The notes below the pieces were generated by a model. That model was not told where the DNA came from. It was given only the letters and a program-made list of their open reading frames with translations, and searched no databases. Shown in pieces: positions 689 to 20,811 of a stretch of DNA of 20,811 nt; position 1 is the stretch's first letter, and each line of letters opens with the position of its first letter. This DNA comes from a virus. The stretch lies in the IMG/VR virus record IMGVR_UViG_3300045912_000945, positions 1 through 20,811 of that record; one strand, 5' to 3'. The position numbers and the translations under genes are program-made.

Positions 689-734
689 TTGTCCTTCGGA
701 AGGCGCCATGGTGGCGTCTTTGACGGAGGACAGC

Positions 735-2033
735 ATGAACGAACAGAAGCGAGCGGCCGGCCGACGGCGGCTGCTGGGTGCGGGGCCCCATCAGCCTCTG
801 CTCGACGATTACGGTCGCCACCTTGCCGGGATCGGCTTCGCGCCGGTGTCCGTGCATATCCATCTCGGCTCGGCACGGCATTTCCTGGCCTGGCTGGTGC
901 AGAGCGGCATCGCGCTCGGAGAGGTCGACCCGGATATCGTGGCGAGCTTCGCGGCCCACGATTGCCGGTGCCACAGTGCGCCGCGGCCGCTCGGGCAGTA
1001 TTACATCAACCGCGTCGATCGCTTCGTGTGCCACCTTGCGGCGGAGGGTCATGTGCCGTCCCGGCCGACGCCGGAAGCGGTTGAGACCGACGAGAACGTC
1101 GCGGGCTGGCTCGATGCGCTGGCGCGCCACAGGGGCCTCGCGCCCGTCACCATCGCGCGCCACGGCCGAATGCTGGCGCAGTTCCTGCCGCTGATCGGCG
1201 CCGATCCGTCCCGCTACACGCCGCGGATCATCCGCGACGGGCTGCTCGAACATGCCCAGACGGCTCGGTCCGTGCACTATCCCAAGATGGTGGCGAGCGC
1301 GCTGCGGCTCTATCTGCGCCATCTCGCGCATCGTGGCCTCGCCGCGCCCGATCTCGATCGCGCTGTACCCGCGGCAAAGAGCTGGCGGCTGGCGAGCCTG
1401 CCGCGCTATCTGGACCCGGACGATGTCGAACGCCTTATCGCGTCCTGTGATCCGGATACCTCGGGCGGTCGGCGTGATCGGGCAATCCTCCTACTCTTGG
1501 CGCGCCTCGGGCTTCGGGCGCGCGACGTGGCCGAGCTTCGCCTTGCGGACATCGATTGGCGGGCGGCGACGATCACGGTCTGCGGCAAGGGACGCCGCGA
1601 GGTCCGGCTGCCGCTGCCGCAGGATGCCGGCGATGCCCTGATCGCCTGGCTGACCGAGCCGCGGCCTGCCGCTCCCGGCGACATCGTGTTCGTGGAACTT
1701 CTGCCGCCCTTCGGGCCGATCGGCTCGGGCGTTGTGGGCGGTGTCGTGCGTCGGGCTGTCGAGCGTGCGGGCGTTGAGAACGCGCCCTCGCGCGGCAGCC
1801 ATCTGCTCAGGCACTCGGCCGCCACGGCGATGTTGCGCGGCGGCGCCACGCTGGATGCGATCGCCACCGTGCTGCGGCACCGCTCGACGGACACCACGGC
1901 GCATTACGCCAAGGTCGACATCGCAATGCTGGGCACAGTGGCACAGGCATGGCCGGCGGATGGACCGGCGAGCGCAGCGTCCTCGGCAGCACCCTCCCTC
2001 GGACTGTCCTGGCCGGAGGGCGCGCCATGCTGA
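735..2033 (+). CDS. ritA: RIT tyrosine recombinase A
   Basis: A 432-residue site-specific recombinase that cuts and rejoins DNA through a catalytic tyrosine. The ATG at 735 is preferred over one at 708 because GGAGGA lies at 725-730. The N-terminal half (about 20-210) holds core-binding helices. The C-terminal catalytic domain carries the full set: Arg261 (LGLRARDVAELRL), Lys285 (GKGRREVRLPL), His356 and Arg359 (HLLRHS), His382 and the nucleophile Tyr391 (LRHRSTDTTAHY). It is first in the trio and its stop overlaps the start of ritB (ATGCTGA), implying coupled translation. The proline/alanine-rich tail after Tyr391 is unremarkable. It most likely acts with the other two proteins on the TTATGC-bearing ends. 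Confidence 0.93.
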   Translation: MNEQKRAAGRRRLLGAGPHQPLLDDYGRHLAGIGFAPVSVHIHLGSARHFLAWLVQSGIALGEVDPDIVASFAAHDCRCHSAPRPLGQYYINRVDRFVCHLAAEGHVPSRPTPEAVETDENVAGWLDALARHRGLAPVTIARHGRMLAQFLPLIGADPSRYTPRIIRDGLLEHAQTARSVHYPKMVASALRLYLRHLAHRGLAAPDLDRAVPAAKSWRLASLPRYLDPDDVERLIASCDPDTSGGRRDRAILLLLARLGLRARDVAELRLADIDWRAATITVCGKGRREVRLPLPQDAGDALIAWLTEPRPAAPGDIVFVELLPPFGPIGSGVVGGVVRRAVERAGVENAPSRGSHLLRHSAATAMLRGGATLDAIATVLRHRSTDTTAHYAKVDIAMLGTVAQAWPADGPASAASSAAPSLGLSWPEGAPC

Positions 2034-2941
2034 GCCGCGACCTCGACAGCTATATCGCGCTGCAACGCGCACGCGGGCTGAAGTTCACGACCCAGCCCGG
2101 TCTGCTCAGAAGCTTCGTCGCCGTGGCCGAGGCGGCGGGGGACACGCATATCCGCACCGCACGCGTGCTCGACTGGGCGGCGCGGACGACTTCCGACGAA
2201 CAGGCCCGCAACCGTCTGGCCATCGTCCGGCGTTTTGCCGAGCATCTCGCCATTGCCGATCCGGCGCACGAGGTGCCGCCCGCCGATGCCTTCGGGCGCT
2301 GGCGGTTCGAACGGCGGATGCCGCACATCTACACGGGCGCCGAGATCGCCGCATTGATGGCGGCGGCCCGGCGGCTCGGTCCTCCAGGCGCGGTCCGGGG
2401 CGAGACCCTGGCCACGCTGATCGGCCTTCTGGCCGCGACAGGTTTGCGCGTCTCCGAAGCGCTCGGGCTCGATCTGGATGACGTCACCGCCGATGGGCTC
2501 GTGATCCGCGAGACCAAGTTCCGCAAGAGCCGCCTCGTGCCGTTGCATCCGTCGGCGCGCGCGGCGCTCGACAGCTACATCCGGCGGCGTCGGCGAGACC
2601 AGAGGGCGGGCGACGCTCTGTTCATAGGCGACCATGGACGGCGCCCGTCCTATGTCACGCTCTACGCGCTGTTCCTGCGGATCGCCCGCGAGACCGGTCT
2701 GCGCGGTCTGCCCGGCGAGAAGGGGCCGCGGCTGCACGATCTGCGGCACACCTTCGCGGTGCGCTCGCTGGAAGGCTGCGGCGGCGACCGGCGCGCGATC
2801 TCGCGGCACATGTTGGCGCTCGCCACCTACATGGGCCATGCCGATCCCAGCCACACCTGGTTGTATCTGCAGGCGACACCGGCGCTGATGCAGCACATCG
2901 CCGAGGCCGGCGAGGCCCTGATGGCGGAGGGCCGAGCATGA
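2027..2941 (+). CDS. ritB: RIT tyrosine recombinase B
   Basis: A 304-residue tyrosine recombinase. The start is ATG 2027, overlapping ritA's stop by 7 nt and preceded by GGAGGG at 2015-2020; the longer upstream frame is not needed. An N-terminal SAM-like core-binding region (about 1-95) precedes the catalytic domain. Visible catalytic residues are Arg141 (ATGLRVSEALGL), a lysine in KFRKSRLVPL (164-173), His237 and Arg240 (LHDLRH), His271 (MGHADPSHTWLYL) and Tyr280. The spacing is that of an active integrase. Its stop overlaps ritC's start (ATGA), so the three proteins are made from one message. Which of the three performs strand exchange and which helps is not visible from sequence. Confidence 0.93.
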   Translation: MLSRDLDSYIALQRARGLKFTTQPGLLRSFVAVAEAAGDTHIRTARVLDWAARTTSDEQARNRLAIVRRFAEHLAIADPAHEVPPADAFGRWRFERRMPHIYTGAEIAALMAAARRLGPPGAVRGETLATLIGLLAATGLRVSEALGLDLDDVTADGLVIRETKFRKSRLVPLHPSARAALDSYIRRRRRDQRAGDALFIGDHGRRPSYVTLYALFLRIARETGLRGLPGEKGPRLHDLRHTFAVRSLEGCGGDRRAISRHMLALATYMGHADPSHTWLYLQATPALMQHIAEAGEALMAEGRA

Positions 2942-3951
2942 CGCCGCTCGCCCCGTACCTGTCCGCCTTCCTCCGCGAGCATCTGCCGCGCGAGCGCGGC
3001 GCCTCGCAGCACACCATCGCGTCCTACGCGCATTGCTACCGGCTGCTCCTGACCTTCGCGGCAGAACGGCGGAAGACCAGACCAAGTCGGCTCGGCATCG
3101 AGGATTTCGACGCAGAGCTGATCTCCGCCTTCCTCGACCATATCGAAGTGGAGCGGTCAAACTCGGCGCGCAGCCGCAACGCCCGGCTGGCGGCGATCCA
3201 TTCGCTGTTCCGGTTCCTTGAGTATCGCGTGCCCGCCTGCCTGGAGCAGGCCCGGCGGATCCACGCGATCCCGATGAAGCGCAGCGCCCAGCCGCTGGTG
3301 GGCTACCTCACGCGAGCCGAGATGCAGGCGCTCCTTGCGGCGCCCGATCCGCGCACCGCTGCGGGGCTGCGCGATCAGGCGATGCTGCACCTCTCCTTCG
3401 CGGCTGGGCTCCGCGTCTCGGAGCTGGTTGGCCTCAGGCTCGACCAGTTCGACGATGCCGCGATGCCCAGCCTGCATGTGGTCGGCAAGGGCCGGCGCGA
3501 GCGCATCCTGCCGCTCTGGCAGGAAACGGCCCGGGCGCTCCGGCGCTGGATCGCGGTGCGCCCGACAAGGGGCGATCCGCAGCTGTTCCTGAACGCAGCG
3601 GGCCGGGCCATGACGCGGTCCGGCTTCGAGTACATTCTGCGCAAGCACGCAGCCGCAGCGGTGCAGGTCGAGCCATCGATCGCGGCGAAGCGGGTGACGC
3701 CGCATGTCCTGCGCCATAGCTGCGCCATGCACACGCTACAGGCCACCGGCGATGTCCGCAGGGTCTCGCTCTGGCTCGGACATGCCAGCGTTCAGACCAC
3801 CGAGATGTACCTGCGCGCAGACCCAACCGAAAAGCTCGAAGCGCTCACCGCCATGGGACCGCCCAGCTTGAAACGCGGCCGGTTCACCGTGTCGGACAAG
3901 CTGATGGCCATGCTCGCCGACGCCGGAAACGGCCGGAATTATGCGGAGTGA
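2938..3951 (+). CDS. ritC: RIT tyrosine recombinase C
   Basis: A 337-residue XerC/XerD-like tyrosine recombinase. The ATG at 2938 overlaps the ritB stop by 4 nt. An N-terminal SAM-like domain (about 5-110, ending with a short SLFRFLEYRVP helix) precedes the catalytic domain. Key residues are Arg159 (AAGLRVSELVGLRL), Lys184 (GKGRRERILPL), His256 and Arg259 (HVLRHSCAMH), His282 (LWLGHASVQTTEMYL) and Tyr291. The last codons overlap the right inner repeat (3933-3948), so part of a probable recombinase-binding site is also coding sequence. It is the last gene in the trio and is followed by a strong hairpin at 3970-3992. Confidence 0.93.
   Translation: MTPLAPYLSAFLREHLPRERGASQHTIASYAHCYRLLLTFAAERRKTRPSRLGIEDFDAELISAFLDHIEVERSNSARSRNARLAAIHSLFRFLEYRVPACLEQARRIHAIPMKRSAQPLVGYLTRAEMQALLAAPDPRTAAGLRDQAMLHLSFAAGLRVSELVGLRLDQFDDAAMPSLHVVGKGRRERILPLWQETARALRRWIAVRPTRGDPQLFLNAAGRAMTRSGFEYILRKHAAAAVQVEPSIAAKRVTPHVLRHSCAMHTLQATGDVRRVSLWLGHASVQTTEMYLRADPTEKLEALTAMGPPSLKRGRFTVSDKLMAMLADAGNGRNYAE
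3933..3948. repeat. Right inner inverted repeat of RIT element
   Basis: CCGGAATTATGCGGAG, the inverse partner of 674-688, containing TTATGC at 3939-3944. It lies within the last codons of ritC. Confidence 0.7.
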
Positions 3952-4049: not shown

Positions 4050-4204
4050 GCCGTGAAAACCGCTCCTATAGCCAAGTTGTCCGAGAAGGACACGTCGAGC
4101 CCGAACAGGGGGAACACCACGATCTGCGCCAGCACCGCCACGCCGAACCCGACACCCACGTTGGCGACCGCCTCGACCAGCGACATGGTGCGCGACTGCT
4201 TCAC
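4040..4204 (-). pseudogene. 5' half of interrupted DUF7220-like membrane protein gene
   Basis: A GTG at 4204 overlaps the stop of the upstream methyltransferase gene (GTGA). The frame reads VKQSRTMSLVEAVANVGVGF, then a hydrophobic helix with VLAQIVVFPLFGL, then SDNLAIGAVFTA. At ACG GCC it runs into the RIT end and stops two codons later (TTA TGC TGA). Joined to the fragment at 496-588 it restores an 80-residue protein with the usual family pattern (SLVEAxxNV, VFPLFGL, IGAVFTAVSIGRS, LRRLFEAIR). The family is a small, probably membrane-associated phage protein of unknown role. The truncated 54-residue product may still be translated by coupling. Confidence 0.88.
4049..4054. repeat. Right copy of 6-bp target duplication GGCCGT
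   Basis: The partner of 583-588. On the minus strand it encodes the Thr-Ala codons (ACG GCC) at which the DUF7220-like gene was split. Confidence 0.8.
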
Positions 4205-5454
4205 GCCGCCGCCCGCTCGTCCTTCAGGTCCGCAAAGGCCCGCTCATCGCCATCGAGGATCGCGGACGATCCCGTGAACGCGTGCCATCGCTCGACGATC
4301 ACGTCGCAGTAGCACGGGTCGATCTCCAGCGCGAGACATGCGCGCCCCACGCTCTCTGCAGCGACGATGGTCGTGCCGCTGCCGGCGAAGGGCTCGTAGA
4401 CGAGGTCGCCGCGCTTGCTGTTGTTGACGATCGGCCGGCGCATGCACTCGACAGGCTTCTGCGTGCCGTGTGTGGTCGCTTCGTCCTCGTCGCCGCCGCC
4501 GCCGATCGTCCATAGCGTCGACTGGTCGCGCGCTCCCTGCCAGTGTCCGTTCGCGCCCTTGCGGACCGCGTAGAAGCACGGCTCATGCTGCCAGTGATAG
4601 TCACCACGGCCGAGCACGAAGCGCGGCTTCGCCCAGACGATCTGCGAGCGGATCATCAGCCCGCTCGCCTCCAGACTCTCAGCAACGGTGCGCGCATGGA
4701 CACCCGCGTGCCAGACATAGGCGACGTCGCCCGGGAACAGCGCCCATGCCTCGCGCCAATCGGCACGGTCATCGTTCGAGACCCGGCCCGTGCGCGCGGT
4801 GGCGGATACGCCCGCTTCGTTGCGCCAAGCCGGGTCGTACTCGACCCCATAGGGCGGGTCTGTGACCATCAGATGCGGGACCGCTCCGGCGAGCAGCCGC
4901 TCGACATCGTCGGCGCTCGTGGCGTCACCGCAGAGCAGGCGATGCGTGCCAAGCAGCCAGAGGTCGCCCGGGCGCGTGACGGGCTCTACAGGCGGCTCCG
5001 GGACGACGTCCTCGCCCTCCGCGGCGCCATCGGTCCCGTTCAGGTCGTCGAGCAGGCGGTCGAGCTCGTCCTCGCCGAAGCCGAGGAGATCGAGGTCGAC
5101 CCCGTCGTCCTTGAGACGCGCCACCTCCGTGGCGAGCATCGCGTCGTCCCAGCCGGCGTTGAGCGCGATCTGGTTGTCGGCGATCCGGAAGGCGCGCGCC
5201 TGCGCATCCGTCAGATGGCCGAGCCGGATGACCGGCACCTCAGCCAGACCGAGGCGCCGGGCCGCCAGCAGCCGGCCGTGGCCGGCCACCAGCACGCCGC
5301 GCTCATCGACGAGGCACGGGACGTTGAAGCCGAACTCGGCGATCGATCCAGCGATCTGGGCGACCTGGTCCTCCGGATGGGTCCGGGCGTTCGCCGCATA
5401 CGGCAGGAGCCGCTCGATCGGCCACCGCTCGACGGCAAGCTCCTCACGCGGCAT
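4201..5454 (-). CDS. ParB-domain/DNA methyltransferase fusion (DPPY type)
   Basis: A 417-residue predicted modification enzyme. The ATG at 5454 overlaps the end of its upstream paralogue by 11 bp. Residues 1-130 form a ParB/Srx-like domain with AGHGRLLAARRLGL (57-70) and FRIADNQ. A Pro/Glu-rich linker leads to RPGDLWLLGTHRLLCGD, then the methyltransferase catalytic motif TDPPYG (198-203), HGTQKPVE (329-336) and the AdoMet-binding motif EPFAGSGTT (354-362) followed by ALEIDP. The order, catalytic motif before AdoMet motif, is that of beta-class amino-methyltransferases. DPPY usually indicates N6-adenine methylation, so that base is inferred; the recognition sequence is unknown. No restriction nuclease is nearby, which suits a phage enzyme that shields DNA from host cleavage. 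The ParB domain here is probably not for partition. Confidence 0.88.
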   Translation of the reverse strand: MPREELAVERWPIERLLPYAANARTHPEDQVAQIAGSIAEFGFNVPCLVDERGVLVAGHGRLLAARRLGLAEVPVIRLGHLTDAQARAFRIADNQIALNAGWDDAMLATEVARLKDDGVDLDLLGFGEDELDRLLDDLNGTDGAAEGEDVVPEPPVEPVTRPGDLWLLGTHRLLCGDATSADDVERLLAGAVPHLMVTDPPYGVEYDPAWRNEAGVSATARTGRVSNDDRADWREAWALFPGDVAYVWHAGVHARTVAESLEASGLMIRSQIVWAKPRFVLGRGDYHWQHEPCFYAVRKGANGHWQGARDQSTLWTIGGGGDEDEATTHGTQKPVECMRRPIVNNSKRGDLVYEPFAGSGTTIVAAESVGRACLALEIDPCYCDVIVERWHAFTGSSAILDGDERAFADLKDERAAA

Positions 5455-6856
5455 CGGTGATCTCGACGCCGCGCCAGGCGGCGATCTCATCGAAGCTGCG
5501 GCCATCGTCGTCGAGCGCGATCGGCTCTGCCGGATAGAGCTGGCGCCAGCGCAGGAGCGCGACGTCCACATACTCGGGCGCAAGCTCGATGGCGCGCACG
5601 CGGCGCCCCGCTCGCTCGCCGGCGATAATCGTCGTGCCGGATCCCGCGAACGGCTCGAATACCACGTCGCCCTCTGCCGAATAGGTGCTCATGACGAACT
5701 CCGGCAGCGCCACCGGAAACACCGCCGGGTGCTCGGTCTCGATCCCGCGCGCCTTGTGCCGCGTGATGCGCAGCACGTTGTCGGGAATGCGGGTCTCCTG
5801 GACGCCCTGGCCGGCGTGCGTCCATGCGCCCACGGTGCCGTCCTTGCCGCGCATGCCGCCGTGGCTGTCGTTGATGTGCCCAGCCCACTTGCAGGGCACG
5901 ATCTTGTTGGGCTTGCGCGCCTGCCTGTTAAAGTGGAACAGAAGCTCGAAGGCGGGCGCCAGCCGGCCGTTCCAGTCGCCGGGCAGGCCCGGCCCCTGGT
6001 CCCAGACGTAGAGCCCGAAGCGCCGCCAGCCCTGTGCCCGCATCCAGTCGAGCCAGGCCTCCCAATAGGGCTGCCACTCGTTGTCGCGGTGGACAAGGCC
6101 GAGATTGACAAGCACCTGGCCATCCGCGGCCATGACCGCATCGAGATGGCCGAAGATGCCGCGCATCAGCGCATCCCAGTCGCTGATGCCGCCGGTCGTG
6201 TAGTTCCGCTGGTTGCCATAGGGCGGGCTGGTGAAGAGGAGCGACGCGCGCTCGCCATCCATGATCCGGGTAACCGACTCCGCATCCGTGCTGTCGCCGC
6301 AGAGCAGCCGGTGATCACCGAGCCGCCACAGATCACCCGGCCGGCTGACCGGATTGCGCGGCGGCTCGGGCGCTTCGTCAACATCGTCGCCTTCGCCAGT
6401 CTCACTATCCGACGACATCGCCTCCGTGTCGTCGAGCGGCGCCATCAGCCGGTCGAGCTCGGCCTCGTCGAAGCCGGCAAGCGACAGGTCGAAGCCGTCG
6501 CCGTTCAGCGCATGCAGCTCGGCGGCGAGCAGCTCATCGTTCCAGCCGCCGAGCTCCGTCAGCTTGTTGTCGGCAAGGCGATACGCGCGCGCCTGGGCCG
6601 GCGTGAGATGCGCGACCCGGATCACCGGGACGCTCTCGAGGCCCAGGCGCTGCGCCGCCAGCACGCGGCCATGCCCGGCGATCAGCGTGCCGTCGTCATC
6701 GACCAGGCAGGGCACCAGCCAGCCATATTCCACCAGACTGCCCGCCAAGAGGCCGATCTGGCGCTCGTCGTGGGTCCTGGCGTTTGCCGCATAGGGCGCA
6801 AGCCGGCCCGTCGGCCACTGTTCGATGGCCGATGCCTGAAAGCGAAGATCGTGCAT
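5444..6856 (-). CDS. ParB-domain/DNA methyltransferase fusion (SPPY type)
   Basis: A 470-residue paralogue of the downstream gene with the same plan. The ParB/Srx domain (1-135) has AGHGRVLAAQRLGL (60-73) and YRLADNKLTELGGWND. An acidic linker (142-168) is followed by RPGDLWRLGDHRLLCGD (172-188), TSPPYG (209-214), HPAVFPVALPEF (376-387) and EPFAGSGTT (401-409) with AIELAPEYV. The catalytic SPPY rather than DPPY is the form usual for N4-cytosine enzymes, although some N6-adenine enzymes also use it, so the base is uncertain. The start at 6856 has no obvious ribosome site; the region upstream is the 5-bp-period array. Matching flanking phrases in both genes indicate an old tandem duplication. 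Confidence 0.88.
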   Translation of the reverse strand: MHDLRFQASAIEQWPTGRLAPYAANARTHDERQIGLLAGSLVEYGWLVPCLVDDDGTLIAGHGRVLAAQRLGLESVPVIRVAHLTPAQARAYRLADNKLTELGGWNDELLAAELHALNGDGFDLSLAGFDEAELDRLMAPLDDTEAMSSDSETGEGDDVDEAPEPPRNPVSRPGDLWRLGDHRLLCGDSTDAESVTRIMDGERASLLFTSPPYGNQRNYTTGGISDWDALMRGIFGHLDAVMAADGQVLVNLGLVHRDNEWQPYWEAWLDWMRAQGWRRFGLYVWDQGPGLPGDWNGRLAPAFELLFHFNRQARKPNKIVPCKWAGHINDSHGGMRGKDGTVGAWTHAGQGVQETRIPDNVLRITRHKARGIETEHPAVFPVALPEFVMSTYSAEGDVVFEPFAGSGTTIIAGERAGRRVRAIELAPEYVDVALLRWRQLYPAEPIALDDDGRSFDEIAAWRGVEITDAA

Positions 6857-16624: not shown

Positions 16625-17497
16625 TCAGGAATGGGATTGATCGGGAGTGCTCGGGGACGGCGCGGCCGGGCTTCGGAACTCCAGCCGCTCGCTGGCGGGC
16701 CTCACCGGGCCGCGGATCTTCTCCATCAGCCGCCCGAGATGCGGCTCCTCGACCAGGTCGAGCCGGCCGCTGCGGTCTTTCGCGGGATAGCCCCAGGGGT
16801 TGAGCGTCTGGCAGACGAAAGCGCGGTACGCAGAGCCGTCGTCGGCCTTCATCTCGGCCATGGTGATGACCTGGTCGACGATGCCGGGCAGCTCGTTGCC
16901 GGTCTTGGAGCCGTCGATCTGGGCTGAGAAGAAGCGCCGATTGAAGTCGTCGAGCTTCTCGTCGAGGACGCCGACGAACCAGACGTTCTTCGCCCGGGTG
17001 TGCTGCAGATGCGTGAGCCAGCCGATCATCTCGCGGCCGTGCAGCCCGTAGGCGCCGCGCACGTCCGGTTTGCCCGTCTTCTCCGACAGCGCCTCAGGCT
17101 GGCCCTTGCACCACTGGAAGCAGAGGCGCCCAGCCACCGTGATCGAGTCGATGAAGATCGTCTGGTAGCGGTCGAGCACCGCCCGCTCGCCGAAGCGCGC
17201 CGAGACCGCATCGAAGTGCGCCTGGCTGTAGGGCTGGTCGTCGCGAAAGCTGGGGTTCGGCCCGCCGATGAAGACGGCGAAGTCCCGGCACTCGGTCCAG
17301 GTGCGCGGGCGGATGGTGTCGCCCGGCCAGCCCTCGATGGCGAGGTCGCCGGCCTCGAGGTCCATGAACAGGGTCGCGGCGGGATCGAGCGTCCACAAGA
17401 GGCTGGTCTTGCCGATGCCCGACTTACCGAAGATGCAGCCCTTGATGCCGCGCGGCTCGGCGAGACGCTGGTCGGCGCTGATGATGGGGAGGCTCAT
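16625..17497 (-). CDS. RecA-like phage ATPase (AAA_24, possible Sak4-type recombinase)
   Basis: A 290-residue ATP-binding protein. ATG 17497 overlaps the previous stop (ATGA) and follows GGGAGG. Visible are Walker A GKSGIGKTSLLW (24-35), the acidic strand LFMDLEAGDLAIEGW (43-57), Walker B TIFIDSITVAGR (113-124) and a late KNVWFVGVLDEKLD strand (170-183). This is the AAA_24 arrangement common in phages, where members include Sak4, a RAD51-like single-strand annealing protein. Pairing with an SSB-like gene directly downstream and a Cas4-like exonuclease in the operon supports a recombinase role. The last 25 residues are a Ser/Pro-rich tail. A simple ATP-binding accessory protein remains possible. 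Confidence 0.78.
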   Translation of the reverse strand: MSLPIISADQRLAEPRGIKGCIFGKSGIGKTSLLWTLDPAATLFMDLEAGDLAIEGWPGDTIRPRTWTECRDFAVFIGGPNPSFRDDQPYSQAHFDAVSARFGERAVLDRYQTIFIDSITVAGRLCFQWCKGQPEALSEKTGKPDVRGAYGLHGREMIGWLTHLQHTRAKNVWFVGVLDEKLDDFNRRFFSAQIDGSKTGNELPGIVDQVITMAEMKADDGSAYRAFVCQTLNPWGYPAKDRSGRLDLVEEPHLGRLMEKIRGPVRPASERLEFRSPAAPSPSTPDQSHS

Positions 17498-17793
17498 CGC
17501 TTGCCTCCCTGCGGTGCGATCAGTGCGTCGATCGCGATCTCGGCGCCGAGGACGCCCGCCTTGCGCGCCTCGTCGTAGACGGTGCGGAGCGCGTCGATCT
17601 CGCGGTAGAGCGCGGAGGCCTGCTGGTTGAGGCCGAGGAGAGCGAAGGCCAGATCGTCGACGGTCGCGGTCTCGACCGGCTTCACCGTCTCGTCGCGACG
17701 AAGGCCAAGCGCCGGGATGCGGACCATCTCGGGGAGGCTGGCGAGGCCGTAGTGGTGCTCGCGCAGGGCCGCGAGCTTGCTCTTGGCGCTCAT
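17494..17793 (-). CDS. Small hypothetical phage protein, 99 aa
   Basis: ATG 17793 overlaps the upstream stop (ATGA), and its own stop overlaps the ATPase start the same way. The sequence is MSAKSKLAALREHHYGLASL, then PEMVRIPALGLRRDE, followed by a helical segment with LAFALLGLNQQASALYREID and ALRTVYDEARKAGVLG. It is charged and mostly helical, with a probable coiled-coil section around residues 48-80. I do not recognise a named family. The tight coupling to the ATPase suggests a partner or loader. Confidence 0.75.
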   Translation of the reverse strand: MSAKSKLAALREHHYGLASLPEMVRIPALGLRRDETVKPVETATVDDLAFALLGLNQQASALYREIDALRTVYDEARKAGVLGAEIAIDALIAPQGGKR

Positions 17794-18278
17794 CGCGACA
17801 CCTCGCTGGTCAGGGAAAGGCGGAAGGTCGGCTTGCCCGTGCGCACCGTCCGGGCCGGCGCAAAGAGCTGCCGGATCGACTCGGGCCAGGCGGCAAACGC
17901 GCGCTCGGAGACCTTGAGCTCGGTGGCGACGTACTCGGCGGGATCCTCGCCGCCGGCGCGGATGCGCTCGACGAGCGCCGAAAGCTGCGCCTGATCCCAC
18001 TCGATCTTCTTCGGCAGGTCGGCGATGACGGTGACGGCGCCGTCGGCGAGACGGATCGTGCCGGTGTCCTTGCCCGCCTCGCGGCGCAGCGCCGCAGCGC
18101 GCTCGCCGTACTTCAGCGCCAGAGCGCCATCGAGCCAGTCCTTCACCAACTTGGCGCGGCGCAGATTGTCCTCGATGTCCTGCTGCAGCAGTGCGAGCTG
18201 CTCCGCCGGCAGAGCGACCACGTCGCCCGCGGGCATCTGGAGGAAGTCCTGGAAGGTGGTGTGGTTGGGGAGGGTCAT
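17790..18278 (-). CDS. Hypothetical phage protein, 162 aa
   Basis: The second of two close ATGs (18278) is favoured because GGGAGG at 18287-18292 is 8 nt upstream, against 2 nt for the ATG at 18284. A helical N-terminal half (QLALLQQDIEDNLRRAKLV, WLDGALALKYGERAAALRRE) leads into a strand pair DTGTIRLADGAVTVIADLPK and KKIEWDQAQLSALVERIR, then GGEDPAEYVATELKVSERAF and a C-terminal WPESIRQLFAPARTVRTGKP. Similar proteins stand before AAA_24 ATPases in alphaproteobacterial prophages; no function is known to me. It ends with an ATGA overlap into the next gene. Confidence 0.75.
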   Translation of the reverse strand: MTLPNHTTFQDFLQMPAGDVVALPAEQLALLQQDIEDNLRRAKLVKDWLDGALALKYGERAAALRREAGKDTGTIRLADGAVTVIADLPKKIEWDQAQLSALVERIRAGGEDPAEYVATELKVSERAFAAWPESIRQLFAPARTVRTGKPTFRLSLTSEVSR

Positions 18279-18293
18279 GGACATGGCCTCCCC

Positions 18294-18503
18294 TCACGCC
18301 GACATCTTGGTCGGGGCGGCGGCCGTGCTCTTGCGGAGCTGCTCCGCCTCGAACGCCTCGACGTCTTCGAGGCGGTACACGACCCTGCCGCCGATCTTGA
18401 TGAACTGCGGGCCTTCGCCCGTCCAACGCCACCGCTCCAGCGTGCGATGGCTGATGTTCCAGCGAGCCGCCAGCTCGATCTGGTTCAAATGCCGAACCGC
18501 CAT
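18294..18503 (-). CDS. Helix-turn-helix protein (AlpA/excisionase-like)
   Basis: A 69-residue DNA-binding protein; ATG 18503 with GGAGA 5 nt upstream. HLNQIELAARWNISHRTLER forms a MerR-like helix-turn-helix and WTGEGPQFIKIGGRVVYRL the wing, followed by EDVEAFEAEQLRKS. This is the HTH_17 (AlpA/Xis) fold. It is the first gene of the long minus-strand replication operon. It may be an early regulator or a recombination directionality factor. No phage integrase is visible in the window, so a regulatory role seems more likely from context. Confidence 0.85.
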   Translation of the reverse strand: MAVRHLNQIELAARWNISHRTLERWRWTGEGPQFIKIGGRVVYRLEDVEAFEAEQLRKSTAAAPTKMSA

Positions 18504-18557
18504 CCGTCTCTCCTTCGGTCTCGTGAGCAAACCTGCGGAGACGTTGGCAGACGGGTC

Positions 18558-18613: not shown

Positions 18614-18637
18614 AAAAAAGCCGCCCCGAAGGGCGGC
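18614..18637 (-). terminator. Intrinsic terminator of the two-gene operon
   Basis: On the minus strand GCCGCCC-TTCG-GGGCGGC is followed by six Ts (18619-18614). It lies 28 bp after the stop at 18665, a classic rho-independent terminator that isolates the 18665-20811 genes from the phage operon. Confidence 0.9.
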
Positions 18638-18664: not shown

Positions 18665-19639
18665 TCAGAGGCGCGCGGGCACTTTCAATCGAACCTGCCC
18701 ATCATGCGTTTCGATGTATTCTCTCCATGCGTTGCGCTTCTCGGGACGCTTGTCCTTGAAGACGTCCTCAATGCGGTCGGAATCGTACTCGGCCTCGGCC
18801 AGGAGCCACTCCTCGCTCACCCATTCGGCGCCTCGGGCCCAAGCCTCATAGAGCAACCGGATGAGTCGCTTCTTCTTGCCCCGGAAGAGGTACTGTCGCT
18901 CGTGGATGCGGAGCCATGATCCGTCCGGACTGCATTCGACGGGGCTGACCTGACGCTCGACCGCGGCGGGCCGCGAGTAGGCCATTGCGGCAAGGCGATA
19001 GAGATCCAGCTCCACATCGCTGGAGCCGCGGGAAAGAACGGTCCCGACGGGGATGATCCTGCTAACAGCCGGTAGTATGAGGTCATCCGGCACCCACTGA
19101 GCGGACGTCAGCAGAAGGGATGGCTTGGCGCCAAGCCGCAGCTTGAGCTCCGGATTCAGCGACGCTCGCACATCGGGCGCGACCAGGCGCCGGGCGAACA
19201 GGACTGGGATCCCTGTGCGCCGGCCGAGCCTCGGCGTGCCCAGGTCCCAAAGGAGGCCATCCACTAAGGGAATGGGTTTGCGGGTCGACGGGAGCCCAAG
19301 CAGCCGGCAGATCAGCGCCATGAAGGCGGCGGTGTCCAGACGCCACGTCCGCAGCTCGTCGGCGGCAACATCGACAAAGCCGGCCTCGGGATGGAAGTAG
19401 CTGGCAACACTGGTCGCGTGATCGAATTCGATCGAAGCCTGTGTTTCCCCGTCAGCAAGGGCCACACGGATCGAATCGAGGGGTTTGCCAGGCACGAGGA
19501 GCGCGCCCCCGGTCAGCTTTTCCCCCTCGGGGCCGATCTCGTCTTCGAGGACGCGCGCCGTCGCGATCGGTGGCTCCTGCTCGGCCAGCTGGACCAAGAA
19601 GCGGAACGCACGGGTCGAGATTGCGGCCTTGGCAATCAA
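18665..19639 (-). CDS. Unknown protein with C-terminal winged-helix-like domain, 324 aa
   Basis: The frame opens with TTG at 19639, overlapping the upstream stop (TTGA), so coupled translation is likely. Residues 1-130 are strand-rich (LTGGALLVPGKPLDSIRVAL, FHPEAGFVDVAADELRTWRL). The middle has LVDGLLWDLGTPRLGRRTGI and PVLFARRLVAPDVRASLNPE. The C-terminal about 75 residues, with YLFRGKKKRLIRLLYEAWAR, GAEWVSEEWLLAEAEYDSDR and IEDVFKDK, resemble an OmpR-type winged helix, so DNA binding is inferred. I do not recognise the family. The only visible neighbour in its operon is the 391-residue gene; the pair may be phage cargo or a host gene pair. Confidence 0.72.
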   Translation of the reverse strand: MIAKAAISTRAFRFLVQLAEQEPPIATARVLEDEIGPEGEKLTGGALLVPGKPLDSIRVALADGETQASIEFDHATSVASYFHPEAGFVDVAADELRTWRLDTAAFMALICRLLGLPSTRKPIPLVDGLLWDLGTPRLGRRTGIPVLFARRLVAPDVRASLNPELKLRLGAKPSLLLTSAQWVPDDLILPAVSRIIPVGTVLSRGSSDVELDLYRLAAMAYSRPAAVERQVSPVECSPDGSWLRIHERQYLFRGKKKRLIRLLYEAWARGAEWVSEEWLLAEAEYDSDRIEDVFKDKRPEKRNAWREYIETHDGQVRLKVPARL

Positions 19640-20811
19640 ACGATCAGATCCTCCACCACCCGCCAGCGCCGCAAGTACTTCTCGCCGATCAGCCGCTCCT
19701 TCTCTGTCTTGTCCTTGAGGTCGCAGCCATTGGGATGGTGTAGCTTGATGGTGATGGTACGGCCCCGCGGGTTGACCGTATCCGGTTTGAAACGGACGGA
19801 CAGGACCGCTTCGACGATACGATGGCCGCCAAGAAACGGGTCGCGCTCGCCAAACAGTCGGTGTGCCTCTGCGTGCACGGTCGCTTCTTCCGTCCTCGCC
19901 TCGATCGTCACGAACAGGCGCTCATCGAAGGTCTCGAATTTGACGAGGCGGAGACGTACGTTGTCGATCCCATCCTCGGGATCGTGCTCGAACTCCTTTT
20001 CCGTCATGAACACGGAAAGGTCGTAGCGCCGCAGGGGGATTCTTTGCCCCTCGATCGCATGGCCCAAAAGAGTCTTGGCGAACATCCGCGCAAGCTCCGT
20101 GCGGCGCGCCTTCTTCTGAGCCACCACCTCGATCACGCCGCTGGCCGGCTCGTAGGCGAACGCCAGCTCATAGACCGGTCTGTAGACGAGCGGCTCGAGG
20201 TCTTCCCCCTGGAAGACGGAGACGCTGTCTGGAAGTCCCTCGCGATAGATCGTGACCTGAACCAGCTCCTTGACCTCACCATCAAGATCTGTCCGGCTGC
20301 GGTCGAAGACCTCGATCTTGATCTTTTGGCCCTCACGGAAGAACTGCTGCACCTCCGCTGCGAGCGCCTGGAGGTGCACCGCCTCCCGAGAAACCTTCAG
20401 GCTCGCGGGGGCGACAAAGCCATCCCACAGTCTGCCGCGCCGGGAATTCTCGAAGAACGACGCTTCCTCGGCCCGGCGGAAGCGCTTTTCGTCGTTCCGA
20501 AGCAGCCACAGGGCGCGAGCATGACGGGTGGCGATGTCCCGGAGAATGTCCCGCTGCTCGGGACTGGCGATGTCCATGAGAGCCGTCTGCCCGACATCGC
20601 TTGTCATGCGGTCGGCCCGCTCAAAATCAAGCCGGATGCGCTCGCGCTCGATCTCACTCAATGCGTCGATCGCCTTCAACACGGGCTTGACCAGCGCGCC
20701 GTTGGAGCCGGTCCAGTCGACCGGCTCGGGGAACTCGACCGGGCGCTGCGCGAAATAGGCCTGCAGTTCGGATCCCGGGGTGTTCCGAAGCAGGCGCATG
20801 ACAACGGGCAT
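19636..20811 (-). CDS. Unknown 391-aa protein, possibly extending beyond the window
   Basis: An ATG occupies the last three bases of the window; an upstream start cannot be excluded. The N-terminal 110 residues are helical and charged (ALSEIERERIRLDFERADRM, TALMDIASPEQRDILRDIAT). A strand-rich remainder follows, with KIKIEVFDRSRTDLDGEVKE, VTIYREGLPDSVSVFQ, YRPVYELAFAYEPASGVIEV, KARRTELARMFAKTLLGH and, near the end, GRTITIKLHHPNGCDLKD. No nuclease, ATPase or membrane motif is evident. It is coupled by TTGA overlap to the winged-helix-like gene. Codon choice looks slightly less GC-biased than in the phage operon, hinting at separate origin. Function unknown. Confidence 0.7.
   Translation of the reverse strand: MPVVMRLLRNTPGSELQAYFAQRPVEFPEPVDWTGSNGALVKPVLKAIDALSEIERERIRLDFERADRMTSDVGQTALMDIASPEQRDILRDIATRHARALWLLRNDEKRFRRAEEASFFENSRRGRLWDGFVAPASLKVSREAVHLQALAAEVQQFFREGQKIKIEVFDRSRTDLDGEVKELVQVTIYREGLPDSVSVFQGEDLEPLVYRPVYELAFAYEPASGVIEVVAQKKARRTELARMFAKTLLGHAIEGQRIPLRRYDLSVFMTEKEFEHDPEDGIDNVRLRLVKFETFDERLFVTIEARTEEATVHAEAHRLFGERDPFLGGHRIVEAVLSVRFKPDTVNPRGRTITIKLHHPNGCDLKDKTEKERLIGEKYLRRWRVVEDLIV

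Follow-up and report, generated by a model that had tools for sequence, protein, structure and literature searches.

What do two coupled genes at the edge of a viral record do, and do they act together? The window analysed here is the whole of an IMG/VR virus record of 20,811 bp, in which end repeats were looked for and none were found. Gene A (19636-20811, minus strand, ATG start) encodes 391 aa and gene B (18665-19639, minus strand, TTG start) 324 aa; the start of B and the stop of A share the overlap TTGA at 19636-19639 (minus). The operon has an intrinsic terminator at 18614-18637 (minus), made of a perfect 7-bp stem, a 4-nt loop and six T. Both open reading frames, their overlap and the stem-loop had been described in an earlier sequence-only reading and were confirmed at these positions. 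The ATG of gene A is the final codon of the record, at the right edge of the window. Because two relatives (L002 and L003) show the identical start of a 391-aa A, with the ribosome-binding site AAGGAGC before it, gene A is complete, and just its promoter falls beyond the end of the record. Comparison of three close relatives gave a dN/dS of 0.11-0.18 for A and of 0.20-0.30 for B, and these substitution patterns show that both genes are under purifying selection. Nine of the loci scanned (the window counted in) have the terminator 25-29 nt downstream of the B stop, and the pair was found again in dozens of genomes. Given the dN/dS values, the recurring terminator and the recurring pair, A-B is more than a chance arrangement.

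The linkage of the two genes is strict. B is adjacent in every complete A locus found (about 36, many of them related and thus not independent events). Among 385 genomes of the class to which Erythrobacter cryptus belongs, nine contain A and the same nine contain full-length B, always adjacent, and four further genomes match just the C-terminal winged helix of B. E. cryptus DSM 12079 itself has an A with 94% identity (L003/L008). Within the class of one gammaproteobacterial carrier A was matched in 14 of 369 genomes, two of them weakly and over part of the length; wherever the surroundings of A were read, B or a shortened B stood beside it. A profile comparison aligns this shortened form, seen in the distant loci L111 and L113, with B from end to end (E 3e-4). 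Two genomes carry A and B as a single reading frame with the gene order kept, 742 aa long in one and 767 aa in the other; since these genomes are related, both fusions may go back to a single event. Between the distance matrices of A and B the correlation is r 0.91, as would be expected of genes moving together. The survey bears out the suggestion of an undescribed two-gene operon, and its homologues strictly co-occur: neither homology to a housekeeping pathway nor rare co-occurrence was found for the pair. In a Magnetococcales MAG (L018 9887-11166) A is split over two frames next to an intact B, which may be a frameshift or an assembly error.

By sequence, PHROG 37634 (unknown function) matches A across its full length. 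No usable match in Pfam, NCBIfam or PADLOC was obtained for A or B; the PADLOC models did not match the distant variants either, and the scans returned GAS2, Rnk_N and RecX weakly and far below the cut-off. Solved structures gave no match to A or B by sequence. No relatives of A or B were found in 50,697 phage records, and one of 72,556 plasmids has them, a Candidatus Tenderia electrophaga plasmid with both genes.

The sequence-only reading had described A as an alpha-plus-beta protein with no known motif. This picture has to be revised, as the model of A (built from 17 sequences; pLDDT 85.8, pTM 0.66) falls into the fold group of RdgC, RexA, CENP-N and CENP-L. Foldseek against the PDB places CENP-N/Chl4 or CENP-L/Iml3 at each of the first ten ranks (E 9e-5 to 0.012, probability up to 0.99). 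E. coli RdgC comes eleventh and lambda RexA thirteenth (E 0.029, probability 0.16). Using VIA-align, ranks 1-16 are occupied by chains of kinetochore complexes and RdgC at Z 7.6-5.9, the first unrelated chain scores 5.5, and the TM-scores of the fold matches are 0.2-0.3 with all Z below 8. This coherent list is meaningful because RdgC, RexA and Iml3/Chl4 have already been reported to have a common, DNA-binding fold (PMC11077077). With the two-domain fold on top of both rankings, A can be placed in this superfamily of DNA clamps with moderate confidence.

The model of A starts with an N-terminal helical region (residues 1-124; 20440-20811, minus), of which residues 57-124 align with the PYRIN-like domain of CENP-N. 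It is followed by a beta domain (residues 125-260; 20032-20439, minus), the part best matching the CENP-L/N homology domain, with conserved R171, R173 and R237. The C-terminal alpha/beta domain (residues 261-391; 19639-20031, minus) corresponds in position to the domain by which RdgC, RexA and Iml3 dimerise and contains the most conserved stretch of A, PNGCxLKxK...KYLxxW. The net charge of A is about zero. The whole RdgC chain is aligned by A residues 118-391, in the same two-domain order. RdgC is, however, a chromosomal recombination factor that has no partner B, and its sequence similarity to A is undetectable: the RdgC family model PF04381 gave no Pfam match to A at E up to 1. Profile-profile comparison did not link RdgC or RexA to A, which is uninformative since RdgC and RexA were equally unlinked to each other. 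We also considered a triphosphate tunnel metalloenzyme and rejected it: rows of that fold reach Z ~5, but the first strand reads LWDGF and the ExExK motif is absent. In a viral structure library, all significant matches to the model were unnamed proteins.

For B (pLDDT 87.2) the model predicts two winged-helix regions flanking an alpha/beta middle domain, with a conserved W-x-L-G. The earlier impression of an OmpR-type winged helix at the C-terminus is borne out by predicted structure: residues 231-322 (18674-18949, minus) match dozens of response-regulator DNA-binding domains of the OmpR/PhoB type at Z ~6. At the N-terminus a winged-helix-like topology was read from secondary structure only. 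The middle domain has the order alpha-beta-beta-beta-alpha-beta, like restriction-endonuclease folds, and is without a catalytic motif. No membrane helix was found in B; the top 19-residue hydropathy across all Bs is 1.61.

The genes around A-B fit its description as neighbour of an early phage module, with the HTH_17-Sak4 operon directly downstream. In the window this operon starts with an HTH_17 excisionase/MerR-like gene (18294-18530, minus), followed by a gene matching PHROG 2480 (17790-18284, minus) and a Sak4-like AAA_24 ssDNA-annealing protein (16625-17497, minus). Most loci show the recurring order serine recombinase-DUF2924, XRE/ImmA, divergent A-B, HTH_17, PHROG 2480 and Sak4; in most phage loci XRE/ImmA adjoins A, with XRE and ImmA either separate or fused. 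Terminase genes are present on four contigs of the set, and portal, head and tape-measure genes are spread over them, which identifies these phages as tailed. In most loci A-B is a constant component of the immunity region of a temperate tailed phage. In six divergent loci with a fused XRE/ImmA gene, all from one class, the promoters of the repressor and of A lie back to back in the intergenic region. In all six, the spacer that separates -35 and -10 in the A promoter holds the palindrome GTCCGATTNNCGGAC or a variant close to it; it is known from these relatives, as the window ends before that region. The palindrome looks like an operator, and because it is conserved in this spacer A-B is probably repressor-controlled.

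Lambda RexA resembles A in its predicted fold group, in its place beside the repressor in the immunity region and in being part of a two-gene operon; Rex genes are known to adjoin CI-like repressors (PMC11077077). The partners differ: lambda RexB is a four-helix membrane protein whereas B appears to be a soluble winged-helix protein. A is also longer (391 aa with an extra N-terminal helical region, against 279 aa for RexA). The A-B promoter diverges from that of the repressor and holds the operator-like palindrome. In lambda lysogens rexAB is co-expressed with cI, but the A-B operon looks repressed by the regulator. An identity of A-B with RexAB was ruled out, as B has no membrane helices and is predicted to be a winged-helix protein.

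Taking together the computed elements (real genes, strict linkage, the A-B fusion, predicted folds, the conserved operator-like palindrome and the immunity-region position), our preferred reading is that A-B is a Rex-like DNA-binding regulator or sensor complex with a new partner, situated in the immunity region and controlled by the repressor. We give this reading a probability of about 0.45; from these elements we infer that A and B form a complex, bind DNA and are repressed by XRE/ImmA, as well as the outcome described below. The two genes of this temperate-phage immunity region would encode one DNA-binding complex, in which A may act as a DNA clamp and B, via its winged helices, would direct A to DNA. 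XRE/ImmA, a putative repressor plus IrrE-type protease, would bind the candidate operator GTCCGATTATCGGAC inside the A promoter and so hold A-B off. Inactivation of the repressor would lead to early production of A-B, which, like RexA, would act when the phage decides between lysogeny and lysis, on DNA of the phage itself or of an invader. The induced state might thereby be stabilised, or other DNA might be sensed and hindered. Overall, A-B probably controls or guards DNA during the phage switch, and foreign-DNA sensing is the main rival or companion of this role.

The position of Sak4 downstream of A-B in most phage loci, along with the predicted fold common to A and RdgC, could also indicate that A-B modulates recombination in the manner of RdgC, acting on replicating DNA alongside the phage annealing protein. 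In many loci, however, the Sak4 operon is set apart from A-B by a terminator, and Sak4 was not detected in L017, L022, L023 and the loci linked to ubiquitin-like or restriction genes, which makes this explanation improbable. A different argument concerns B. In L083 (5338-6027) and also L074, A-B is replaced by a 229-aa protein that shares with B just the C-terminal winged helix; its gene diverges from an apparent LexA/CI-type repressor and lies upstream of HTH_17 and Sak4. By this analogy B may be an ordinary phage transcription regulator in a Cro-like position, with A just a co-factor and no sensing or exclusion involved. Against it, conservation is higher in A than in B and full-length B never occurs without A, while the A-B fusion suggests an integral joint function; we consider this explanation quite unlikely.

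Outside phages, the pair or a variant of it is also found in defence-like surroundings. In three gammaproteobacterial loci, genes for multiubiquitin, a JAB-like protein and ThiF follow directly after A-B (L007 12223-14670, L012 2802-5246 and L013 12239-14677). Clustering showed no other flanking genes in common, so all five seem to be mobile as one block. L013 also adjoins type I restriction genes, type III restriction genes lie beside L111 and type I near L113. The cassette is absent from the window and from the other phage and prophage loci examined, and neither A nor B is itself a protein of the ubiquitin system. Other multiubiquitin/E1/JAB operons likewise have a divergent XRE/ImmA: on Bradyrhizobium and Pseudanabaena plasmids (L028 3423-5999, L029 4016-5816), divergent helix-turn-helix and ImmA/IrrE genes precede multiubiquitin, the regulator type seen before A-B in phages.

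The sequence-only reading had suspected cargo or defence genes. Loose cargo does not hold in phages, where A-B is fixed between XRE/ImmA and HTH_17-Sak4; defence is supported only indirectly, by the non-phage loci beside restriction-modification and ubiquitin-like genes. In an anti-phage system of this kind (superinfection exclusion or abortive infection) A would be the sensor of DNA that is foreign or being replicated, and the block would be carried out by B or by linked genes. Both the restriction genes (type I at L013 and L113, type III at L111) and the cassette right after B in three loci are consistent with this, and Rex systems of Pseudomonas putida and actinophages protect their hosts (PMC12894663). 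On the other hand, no nuclease motif, membrane segment or other recognisable effector was found in A or B, and the phage pair looks repressor-controlled rather than expressed in lysogens. We consider such a defence system rather unlikely, though less so than the two explanations above.

The best structural matches of A, CENP-N/Chl4 and CENP-L/Iml3, suggest a wider explanation. In CENP-N a helical PYRIN domain precedes the CENP-L/N homology domain, and a dimerisation domain forms the C-terminus (PMC5777823), an order that A resembles with its helical N-terminal region. One could accordingly imagine A-B as the prokaryotic equivalent of the DNA reader CENP-N/CENP-L: a mobile two-protein complex recognising a particular DNA or nucleoprotein state, which phages would use for their switch and bacteria, by coupling it to restriction or ubiquitin-like conjugation, as an immune sensor. 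CENP-N and CENP-L are, however, eukaryotic, centromere-binding and without sequence similarity to A. No segregation genes were noticed near A-B, and for a prokaryotic origin of CENP-N/L the literature yielded nothing relevant besides the RexA paper (PMC11077077). We attach a low probability to this explanation.

If our preferred reading of a Rex-like complex is true, Rex-type immunity-region systems extend past RexA plus RexB to a RexA/RdgC/CENP-N fold joined by a winged-helix partner. It would also mean that a mobile prokaryotic relative with a CENP-N-like domain order exists, which bears on the origin of kinetochore DNA readers. As the same pair is tied to restriction and ubiquitin-like cassettes, a sensing role is directly testable.

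Some further observations concern the regulators and the window itself. In one class of the phages a PIN-like gene is tied to the fused XRE-ImmA gene, as in L003 (2411-4264), with equivalents in L002, L005, L019, L022 and L023. The PIN assignment was read from sequence, Pfam giving no match, and the two genes are possibly a toxin-antitoxin pair that doubles as repressor. At the other end of the window, three tandem overlapping genes on the plus strand (708-3951) all match phage tyrosine integrases, like a recombinase-in-trio. They are followed by a convergent ParB-N/N6_N4 DNA methylase gene (4201-5583, minus).
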